A stretch of DNA of 64,000 nt from Candidatus Melainabacteria bacterium (GTDB lineage Bacteria; Cyanobacteriota; Vampirovibrionia; Obscuribacterales; Obscuribacteraceae), in contig DAIDIP010000009.1 in the NCBI GenBank assembly GCA_027451745.1, positions 1 to 64,000 of the forward strand, read 5' to 3'. Shown in pieces: positions 56,931 to 61,540 of the stretch. The notes below the pieces were generated by a model, which was given only the letters and a program-made list of their open reading frames with translations, did no database searches and was not told the DNA's origin. How positions within the stretch are numbered: the stretch's first letter is position 1; each line of letters starts with the position of its first letter. The position numbers were made by a program, and so were the translations under genes.

Positions 56931-57692
56931 CTATGGCTTAACTCTATGAGCAACTTCAGCACTGAGCCCTTCCACATCTCTTCTTATTTCGGCTTCCTGA
57001 TCTGGATCCAATGCCCCACCAGATTCATAAGCGAGTGATTTTTCTTTGCTCAATAAATCATTTGCTCTTAAACGCAAACTCTGATAGTCGGAAGAACTGA
57101 TCTTCCCCTTTTCTTTGGCTTTATCTAAATAACTGTCCATATCAGAAATTATCGTACTTACAGGCGGTAGCGTCTGTCTTGATGTATTGCTATTTGAATC
57201 TACTGTGTAAATTGGATAGCTATTATAAGCATAACCAGCAACCCAGGGATAATAAAAACCCGATGGCCCACGCCAAAATTGATATGGGGCTCCGCCAACG
57301 TTAATGCCATAATAACCGCCTGAAACTAGCTGTGGTATGCCATATACGGGAATCCCAACACCACCAATATTGTAATGGCCCATGTAGTTCGAATATGGAT
57401 AAGCACCGTATACGGCACCACTAAGATTATTATAGTAATTATTGTAGGGATTGTACTGGTTATAGTAGGGATTAGCATAAGGTGTTGGGGCACCATATTG
57501 AACAATGCCAGGATTATATGAATAACCACCACAAGTAGGTGCAGATCCACGAACAGGTACACCAGGAGATTGTGCTACAAGTAAATTGTCCGACATAGAA
57601 GCGTGAGCACAAGCTTGACTTCCGTCAATTAACAATAAAATCAAGGACACTATAAAAATTGACTTGTTTCCATTTAAAAACATTATTTTCAT
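56931..57692 (-). CDS. Secreted Tyr/Asn/Gly-rich protein, hypothetical
   Basis: Exported protein of 253 residues, unrecognised. Signal peptide KSIFIVSLILLLIDGSQA is followed by a central low-complexity region rich in Tyr, Asn, Pro and Gly (NPYYNQYNPYNNYYN, GHYNIGGVGIPVYG), which suggests an exposed flexible or adhesive segment. The C-terminal 85 residues look folded and helical (IISDMDSYLDKAKEKGKISS, YQSLRLRANDLLSKEKSLAY, RRDVEGLSAEVAHRV). Similar Tyr/Gly-rich tails occur in the 19.9-21.2 kb protein. It is convergent with tmk by seven bases. Confidence 0.6.
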   Translation of the reverse strand: MKIMFLNGNKSIFIVSLILLLIDGSQACAHASMSDNLLVAQSPGVPVRGSAPTCGGYSYNPGIVQYGAPTPYANPYYNQYNPYNNYYNNLSGAVYGAYPYSNYMGHYNIGGVGIPVYGIPQLVSGGYYGINVGGAPYQFWRGPSGFYYPWVAGYAYNSYPIYTVDSNSNTSRQTLPPVSTIISDMDSYLDKAKEKGKISSSDYQSLRLRANDLLSKEKSLAYESGGALDPDQEAEIRRDVEGLSAEVAHRVKP

Positions 57693-58645: not shown

Positions 58646-58744
58646 AGTTACTTTCACCAACTTCTTTTCCTAGTCAGCCGCACTTGACAGCAGAGATCAC
58701 AAACAACTTTCTTTTGTTTTCAACAATGCTCACCAAGAACCACC

Positions 58745-59068
58745 ACTGCCACCAAAGGTTCGCCAGAATCTGTTGCTCAAAACGAAAATGTTCTAAGTGG
58801 TGCTCTTCGCCAACTTTTTGCTTTAAGCGAAAATTATCCACAATTAAAAGCCAATGAAAATTTCATTCAATTACAAAATGATTTAAATGAAACTGAAAAT
58901 CGTATTTCTCAAGCACATCGTTTTTACAATGCAAACGTTCGCGAATTAAATACAACTGTAGAATCATTTCCTTCATCAATAATTGCTTCTTCTACCGGTT
59001 TTAAATCAGCACAATATTTTGAAATTGATGATAATGCAGCTCGTAATCCTGTGTCCGTAAAATTTTAG
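58745..59068 (+). pseudogene. LemA family remnant (C-terminal part)
   Basis: An open stretch without start codon ending in TAG at 59066-59068 encodes the C-terminal half of a LemA protein. The pattern is ENVLSGALRQLFALSENYPQ, LKANENFIQLQNDLNETENR, FYNANVRELNTTVESFPSS, then a shortened hydrophobic end (GFKSAQYFEIDDNA). The N-terminal membrane helix and YNxLV...PNLV part of normal LemA (about 80-100 residues) is missing, and in-frame TGA lies upstream near 58685. The preserved part still fits the family well, so loss appears recent. The remaining sequence to 59221 contains nothing recognisable. Confidence 0.75.
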
Positions 59069-59308
59069 CTACTCACCAGATCTTTCATTTTCATTACTTG
59101 TTTTGATACTCAGTCTCAGAGAATTGATTGTTAATATTCACAATTTCTCCACATAAAAGCAGTCTAATTAAACAGTTGCTATAATTACAAGCTTAGTACT
59201 TAGAACCATATATAAGTAATTATGATTATAAACTTGCATCGTTTAGTGTTAGTAAGATCTACTCAGCGACACCGGCATTTTCAAATTATCTGTATTGCCT
59301 TAAACAAT

Positions 59309-61540
59309 ATGCGTCTTGTCACCATATTTAGTATCCTAGCTTTGACATTATTGGCATCGTTTAGCCTAGAGTGCATTGCCGAAACTACTACCAAATTAAA
59401 TGCAGAAGTTTCCTCCTCAGCTAAATTGCAAGGTGAAAAGCCAATACCTGCAGCAATACAGGAAACAAAACTCTATGGAAAAGTAGATATTCTTCGATCT
59501 ACTTGTGCTGAAGTTGGCATAACTTTATCATCTCAAACCCTGCCTGCTACAGTTGAAAAAGTTCAGTTCGGCTCACCAGCTTATGATGCCAATATCGGCG
59601 AAAACGACAAGGTGCTTTCTGCTGAAATTAAAGACAATAAGTTTTGTCTATCCATTGATAGAAACGGACAAAAATATTTAGCTGAAATCAATTTATCTCC
59701 AGAATTCACTGGCACAGTTAAGAACGGTGTTTTGCCTGGTAGCGTTCAACAAACAGCCCTGCCGGGCAGCGTTCAACAAACAGTTTTACCTGGAGGTTTG
59801 CAGCAAACATTATTACAAGGAGCGGCTAATAAATCTGGTAATACTATTGATGGTATTGGTGGACCAGGTGGCGCTGGAGAAATTGGTGTGTCTGGATATA
59901 CTGGAGTAGCACCAGGAAGGCATGAAATAGCCGGTGGTGCTGGGGGGCACGGCGAATTGTTGGACGGTCCTGACGGTGCCCAAGGATTTGACGTACCTGA
60001 TAGAGCTTGGGTCACAAGGCGCGGACCTTCCGGGCACAACGGAATAGATGGTAGGCCGGGGGAATTGGACACCTCTGATGAAGGACAGGGGGACGGATCT
60101 AGAGGGCTCGGGGGACATGGTGGACTCGGTGGACATGGAGGCCTCGGAGGGCTCGGAGGACACCCAGGCCGCTGGGGACGCGGAGATGAAGTTAGAGAAG
60201 CGTGTTCAGGTGGACTAGGTGCTAGTGGTGGGTTCGGCATGCCTGGTGGTCTAGGCGGTGCTGGTATCAATGGTTTGTTTGACGGTATGTTTTATCGTCA
60301 TGAACTGTACGGCCCCGATTGTTTATTATCATCCATGCCTGATTTTATTGAAACAATAGAAGATGGACAAAGCAAAATACCATCGGACAACAAAACCAAT
60401 CTGTCACATGGCGTTAACTCGGAAAGATTAACGTCTTTCGAAAAATCTCTTCCCCCTTTGAAAATCACAATTCTATTGGGTGGTAGTTATATAAACAACT
60501 CATTCAACGGTAAAATTCCAATTTACGACATTATGATGCTATTTGCAGATACTTTAGCTAAATCCGCTAATGAATATCATTTTCCTGCAGGCATGCGCAA
60601 AGCTTTAATCGTAATTGACAAGCAGCCATACCGGACAAATGAACATATTACCGGGTCTTTTAATGGTAATAGTGCAAAATCTTTTTTTGCCACCACTAAA
60701 CCATACATACTGCCTGGTAAAAGTGATCAGGCTAAAATCCCTCTTGACGCAGACATCGATCAACATAAAATTACACTTGCCCCACTAACTATACGCATCG
60801 ATCAGGGTGGCTGTAACCTCAATAATTCATTTAACACTGGCAAAGAACCTAGTTGCCTGAAAGTATTCCACTTGAATTCAGCTCCAAAAGCTTTTTTCGA
60901 TGTGAATATTCATGAACCTGGACCGTTAACTGATATACCAAACAGTAAATTAAGGCCAACACTTATTCAATATAATAATGATACACAGTGCAGTGGTGAT
61001 TGCTTCGATTGCAGATTCCCCACCTTTGAAGATTATTGTTCATTATACGGAACAACTCTTTCAAATACACACTTGTTATTTCCTGATATAAGGCATCTTT
61101 ATTGCACTCTTGAAAATGATTACGGTGACAGAATGCAAAACAAAATAAAAGAAGAGCGCCAACGACTGATCAATGAATGGGCTCAAATTAAAGGACACTA
61201 TTCGATGCAATCATTTCAAAGGACTATTGCTGAGGACCGTCACCAGATAGCTGTCAATTGGAATACCCTCAGAAAACAAAGCGATATATTTGGCTTTGGA
61301 CAAGTACAGTCAGTGCCTGCTAATAAAATTTCAGCATTCCATCGTCCAGTTATTGTAAGAATAAGTCTTGGTGGATCAACAATAAATCAATCTTTTAATA
61401 GAAATGGCAGCCTGACAATATTAGTAAATAAATTTCTAGATAGATTAGCTCAGGAAGTCAAACCATCTATTCTTACTGGCTTGGATCATATGGTTTTCCG
61501 CATGGAAGGATCCTATTTTGAAAATTCATTCAATGACTAA
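59309..61540 (+). CDS. Secreted Gly-rich protein with GG-x(3)-N-x-SFN repeats
   Basis: Unrecognised exported protein, 743 residues from the ATG at 59309, where a signal peptide begins (MRLVTIFSILALTLLASFSL); an in-frame ATG at 59222 is possible. Domains in order: a short PDZ-like region (VEKVQFGSPAYDANIGENDK), three tandem LPGSVQQT repeats, a Gly-rich collagen-like stretch of about 140 residues (GLGGHGGLGGHGGLGG), then a long C-terminal part. That part holds four copies of a beta-strand followed by GGSxINxSFN: near 60475, 60803, 61367 and 61503, the last ending the protein. It appears to be a lineage-specific surface or matrix protein. Function unknown. Confidence 0.65.
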   Translation: MRLVTIFSILALTLLASFSLECIAETTTKLNAEVSSSAKLQGEKPIPAAIQETKLYGKVDILRSTCAEVGITLSSQTLPATVEKVQFGSPAYDANIGENDKVLSAEIKDNKFCLSIDRNGQKYLAEINLSPEFTGTVKNGVLPGSVQQTALPGSVQQTVLPGGLQQTLLQGAANKSGNTIDGIGGPGGAGEIGVSGYTGVAPGRHEIAGGAGGHGELLDGPDGAQGFDVPDRAWVTRRGPSGHNGIDGRPGELDTSDEGQGDGSRGLGGHGGLGGHGGLGGLGGHPGRWGRGDEVREACSGGLGASGGFGMPGGLGGAGINGLFDGMFYRHELYGPDCLLSSMPDFIETIEDGQSKIPSDNKTNLSHGVNSERLTSFEKSLPPLKITILLGGSYINNSFNGKIPIYDIMMLFADTLAKSANEYHFPAGMRKALIVIDKQPYRTNEHITGSFNGNSAKSFFATTKPYILPGKSDQAKIPLDADIDQHKITLAPLTIRIDQGGCNLNNSFNTGKEPSCLKVFHLNSAPKAFFDVNIHEPGPLTDIPNSKLRPTLIQYNNDTQCSGDCFDCRFPTFEDYCSLYGTTLSNTHLLFPDIRHLYCTLENDYGDRMQNKIKEERQRLINEWAQIKGHYSMQSFQRTIAEDRHQIAVNWNTLRKQSDIFGFGQVQSVPANKISAFHRPVIVRISLGGSTINQSFNRNGSLTILVNKFLDRLAQEVKPSILTGLDHMVFRMEGSYFENSFND
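59732..59812 (+). repeat. Three tandem 27-base repeats (LPGxxQQTx)
   Basis: Units at 59732-59758, 59759-59785 and 59786-59812 encode LPGSVQQTA, LPGSVQQTV and LPGGLQQTL. The first two differ by a few bases, the third more. They join the PDZ-like region to the Gly-rich segment. Confidence 0.85.

Follow-up and report, generated by a model that had tools for sequence, protein, structure and literature searches.

An exported protein with an N-terminal PDZ-like module and a C-terminal SFN repeat region in an Obscuribacterales-like bacterium

The periplasmic proteases DegP/HtrA and RseP carry PDZ domains whose core, GSPA-x-x-AG-x-x-x-GD, is aligned by a profile built from the N-terminal module of the protein described here. 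Glycine at every third residue, which marks the central part of the same protein, is shared with the bacterial collagen-like proteins, a group defined by long uninterrupted Gly-X-Y runs and high proline. It is also found, together with low proline and frequent GGX triplets, in Gly-rich PPII-helix bundle proteins, such as the Obg N-domain and the snow flea antifreeze protein (reviewed in PMC8409303).

Here we report the analysis of a 743-aa exported protein encoded at 59309-61537 (+) in a 64,000-nucleotide stretch of contig DAIDIP010000009.1 (hereafter the window), which comes from a host genome of 3.0 Mb in 76 contigs. Unlike DegP/HtrA and RseP, this protein is without a protease domain, and its PDZ-like module taken alone lies under the Pfam PDZ cutoffs. 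Exported proteins of the host's own family have the same N-terminal PDZ module, although in many of these cousins it is combined with a VWA domain bearing a DxSxS motif, whereas Gly-rich and SFN parts occupy that place here. Four copies of a motif ending in SFN had been noticed in the C-terminal part in the original prediction, and we identified homologues of this part in two other genera.

Gene, export signal and genomic context

The open frame spans 59222-61540, and the Met at 59309, which leads directly into a clean signal peptide, is preferred as candidate start to the ATG in the same frame at 59222. The signal peptide, the N-terminal part of which (residues 2-18) is helical in a low-confidence AlphaFold model, supports the proposal that the protein is secreted. 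Genes for Omp85, an OmpH-like protein, LpxC, and LpxD lie nearby, and thus the cell is a diderm one that possesses lipid A genes as well as an outer membrane. The features of the protein are collected in Table 1.

Table 1. Predicted features of the exported protein and their positions in the window; the unit profile was built with SFN units 1, 2, and 3 of this protein among its rows
Feature	Residues	Positions	Strand	Basis
Sec-type signal peptide (MRLVTIFSILALTLLASFSLECIAE)	~1-25	59309..59383	+	read directly from sequence
PDZ-like module	53-136	59465..59716	+	relatives and profile matches
Three tandem nonapeptides LPG(S/G)(V/L)QQTx	142-168	59732..59812	+	sequence
Gly-rich, Gly-X-Y-periodic stretch	175-326	59831..60286	+	lag-3 Gly count
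SFN unit 1: PPLKITILLGGSYINNSFN, helix, strand, ITGSFNG	382-468	60452..60712	+	unit profile, E 4e-27
SFN unit 2: APLTIRIDQGGCNLNNSFN ... CFD	491-567	60779..61009	+	unit profile, E 2.4e-15
Insertion with Cys and a predicted long helix (~85 residues)	~569-654	61013..61270	+	P0002 alignment
SFN unit 3: RPVIVRISLGGSTINQSFN, helix, strand, EGSYFENSFND at the C-terminus	679-743	61343..61537	+	unit profile, E 3.3e-25

The gene is preceded by a truncated lemA and followed by tRNA-Met and accC/accB on the opposite strand. The lemA fragment (58733-59065, +) covers Pfam LemA positions 40-149, its N-terminus is missing in frame, and it is the sole LemA match in the genome. A small exported Tyr/Gly/Asn-rich protein without a Pfam match is encoded at 56931-57692 (-). 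Two minus-strand open frames, 59773-60270 and 59813-60163, were taken as shadows of the G-rich stretch and rejected. GC3 is 0.29 both in the PDZ part and in the C-terminus of the protein, so the C-terminal half shows no foreign sign.

The PDZ-like module, its exported relatives, and the Gly-rich stretch

Alone, the PDZ-like module reaches Pfam PDZ_2 at E 0.0054, with 17.4 bits against a cutoff of 27 and thus below it. A 31-row profile of the module recovered DegP PDZ domains at E 4.3e-8, as well as many other PDZ chains, and identifies the PDZ-like start as a PDZ relative, as had been suggested. In a low-confidence model of the module, strands appear at residues 84-128 only, with pLDDT of about 48-71 there. 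The module was matched in 32 of 146 relative genomes, all within the window's own family, where an exported PDZ module is present in 32 of the 50 genomes searched. Pfam detects a VWA domain in 22 of the 31 proteins with the module; this domain, with its MIDAS DxSxS, is absent from the window protein by the same library.

Family-wide exported PDZ-VWA proteins (L003-L036, e.g., L035:1162-2379 and L017:1327-2391), often several per genome, were observed, and most of them carry the DxSxS metal-site motif. No description of PDZ-VWA proteins in this order was found in the literature searched. Another protein of the window's own genome (contig C3, L036:8191-9255) joins the PDZ-like module to a calpain-like cysteine protease domain, which matches Pfam PF00648 at E 9.1e-5, just under the cutoff. 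A relative of the module from the same genus (L033:4118-4876, -) has an unrelated C-terminus and may hold a second PDZ-like stretch.

Three tandem nonapeptides follow the module, as expected from the predicted layout with its threefold LPGxxQQT. An exported protein of the family (L037:2528-4090, -) opens with about six LxGxxxQxx nonapeptides that resemble these repeats. In the Gly-rich stretch downstream, glycines at lag 3 number 38 versus 20 in shuffles, and 0 of 5000 shuffles reach this count. The stretch had been called collagen-like, and its Gly-X-Y periodicity agrees with that description; however, the X and Y positions are each only 9% proline, and GGX/GXG triplets are frequent. Since proline is scarce, the label is a loose one, and the Gly-X-Y runs are short and interrupted (5-10 triplets), unlike the long proline-rich runs that define the collagen-like group. 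A Gly-rich PPII bundle is no less likely a reading and may fit the stretch equally well or better, although here too the runs of the window protein differ in being interrupted, and the likeness is one of periodicity and composition, no sequence relation having been found. Relatives of the stretch were absent from the 60 genomes searched, and the low-confidence model gives pLDDT of about 30 across most of it.

The SFN units and their homologues

The four predicted copies, GGSYINNSFN (391-400), GGCNLNNSFN (500-509), GGSTINQSFN (688-697), and EGSYFENSFN (733-742), are all present, and the last one closes the protein, stopping one residue short of the stop. A fifth SFN, missed previously, lies at residue 450 (ITGSFNG), and CFD at 565 probably represents a sixth copy in degenerate form. 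Within the last 379 aa, five SFN tripeptides were observed versus 0.15 expected, with a maximum of three in 20,000 shuffles. The even spacing proposed for the copies was not found in this protein: SFN occurs at positions 398, 450, 507, 695, and 740, at intervals of 52, 57, 188, and 45 residues, which are uneven because an insertion splits the array.

The spacing becomes regular in a homologue, P0002, which was the only match to the C-terminal part outside the window's genus in a whole-protein search of 146 relatives (genome G034). P0002 is a separate exported protein of 337 aa, without PDZ or Gly stretches, that aligns over the entire C-terminal region (27% identity, E 5e-29). Its main motifs start at residues 79, 183, and 283, 104 and 100 residues apart, and each is followed some 45-60 residues on by a weaker second motif (IWNG, CFD, and CGN). 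The window protein has the same order, with main motifs at 391, 500, and 688 and secondary ones at 450, 565, and 740; the four copies noticed originally thus correspond to three main motifs and the last secondary one. The insertion is specific to the window protein, being missing from P0002 in the alignment, and contains a helix at 595-627 in the low-confidence model.

The excess of SFN together with the even motif spacing in P0002 argues that the C-terminal region is a real repeat domain. The suggestion of a repeated fold in the C-terminal half is likewise supported by the units themselves and by the recurrence of their motifs in homologues: the scores of the three pairwise alignments between units (W1/W3, W1/W2, and W2/W3) beat 2000 of 2000 shuffles. 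Unit 1 can be aligned with both P0002 and P0003 (see below), unit 2 is short and degenerate, with its CFD conserved in P0002, and unit 3 is 42% identical to P0002 residues 249-335. Two AlphaFold runs gave pLDDT of 34.7 and 36.0, and both of these low-confidence models show a strand, an SFN loop, a helix, and a strand in units 1 and 3. The domain would probably consist of three such units, each running from a strand through a GGSxxNxSFN loop and a helix to a second strand.

A second homologue, P0003 (480 aa), belongs to another family of the order and was found at E 0.002 with a profile of the window protein and P0002, P0003 itself being outside it. Its first unit is PPLGIYLYLNGHEFNNSFNG, the protein ends in NSFNLK, and it too lacks PDZ and Gly stretches. 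Profiles of other units score P0003 at 19.5-25.1 bits, compared with at most 13.0-14.9 bits in 2000 shuffles. When the two units of P0003 are aligned with each other, their score is no better than chance, with 207 of 2000 shuffles reaching it. A unit profile gave convincing matches in 3 of the 53 genomes of the order, the same three. Because its rows include units from each of these, the very low E-values that it gives there arise by construction; P0003 is supported independently by the hit at E 0.002 and by the shuffle test with profiles leaving it out. Recurrence in homologues, a check proposed with the original prediction, was examined directly: two further genera carry the motifs.

Among named relatives that carry the SFN domain, the nearest is a Candidatus Obscuribacterales bacterium (JAIEPM010000395.1). 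No further convincing member turned up among 382 sampled genomes of the class or 386 of the phylum, and a contig scan over 84,980 species, which is sensitive only to close relatives, returned the G034 contig alone. Weak matches in other families (G218, G446, G277, G437, and G168 at E 0.002-0.006, and G095) were rejected as chance, since they fall in short open frames, contain in-frame stops in three cases, or cover a partial unit. Matches were absent from the viral contigs, phages, and plasmids searched for a phage or plasmid origin, and the three loci have nothing in common in their gene neighborhoods.

Neither Pfam nor NCBIfam matches the window protein's C-terminus, P0002, or P0003; the best hits of the SFN domain in PHROGs (E 0.046 and 0.2) and PDB (E 0.66) are not significant, and literature searches on the motif returned nothing relevant. 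The full layout was found in the window genome only, and the earlier impression that no known family has such a layout holds in the libraries searched. The SFN domain represents a genuine family of narrow range, with a clear repeat motif, which these libraries do not recognise and which current protein collections lack.

Possible roles of the SFN domain

The window protein most likely holds or binds something outside the inner membrane. The reading that we favour, as the simplest account, has somewhat less than an even chance: an export protein of a diderm, Obscuribacterales-like bacterium that is docked through its PDZ module and whose SFN domain serves as a head, either structural or for binding a ligand. 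In this LPS-bearing cell, the Sec-exported multidomain protein would use its PDZ module to dock to an envelope partner or a peptide tail, in the manner expected of its VWA-bearing cousins, and the LPGxxQQT and Gly-rich stretches would serve as a flexible or rod-like spacer. Each SFN unit would form a strand, GGSxxNxSFN loop, helix, and strand element, and the loops, placed after strands on one sheet edge, could provide a ligand-binding or packing surface, so that the SFN domain would do the work of the protein as its head, by binding a ligand or partner. In P0002 this head occurs by itself, and this argues for a domain that functions independently.

The original prediction had proposed a surface or matrix module; the sequence indicates export only, and such a role may apply. 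It is rather unlikely that the SFN domain is instead a structural or matrix block, its units packing against one another by their edges or across molecules, with bundles formed by the Gly-rich stretch, in a protein that helps to build a layer of the envelope or surface without binding any small ligand. The repeats, the Gly-X-Y stretch, the 12 Cys of the protein, and its export signal would suit such a role; however, a single SFN-domain gene per genome was found, both homologues are without PDZ and Gly stretches, and presence in just 3 of 53 genomes of the order would be unusual for a main matrix protein.

A more specific version of the docked-head reading is unlikely as a whole: that the domain is a new fold, a three-unit strand-loop-helix-strand array with GGSxxNxSFN loops on one edge binding a ligand, confined to Obscuribacterales and placed in the window genome on the lineage's PDZ export module.

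In alpha/beta proteins, active sites are usually located right after strands. The short conserved polar motif stands in just this position, and other PDZ cousins carry an enzyme-like domain, including the calpain-like protein of the same genome. An enzyme of unrecognised fold, with the conserved Ser/Asn acting in catalysis or metal binding, is nevertheless very unlikely, as the motif is repeated and degenerates between copies (CFD, CGN, and IWNG), and no matches to enzyme families were obtained in Pfam, NCBIfam, or PDB searches. Chance, which the low-complexity Gly-rich and LPGxxQQT stretches might have suggested as the origin of the motif copies, has a negligible probability and is refuted by the shuffle tests and by P0002, the copies lying outside those stretches and being retained in a second genus, where overall identity is 27%.

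The lineage-wide exported PDZ module is joined to different heads (VWA, calpain-like, and SFN), and such combinations may be the way in which proteins facing the envelope are assembled in this little-studied group; the practical weight of the SFN domain is modest until its function is shown. Recent DNA duplication was rejected as the source of the repeats, with just one 15-nt two-copy repeat detected.
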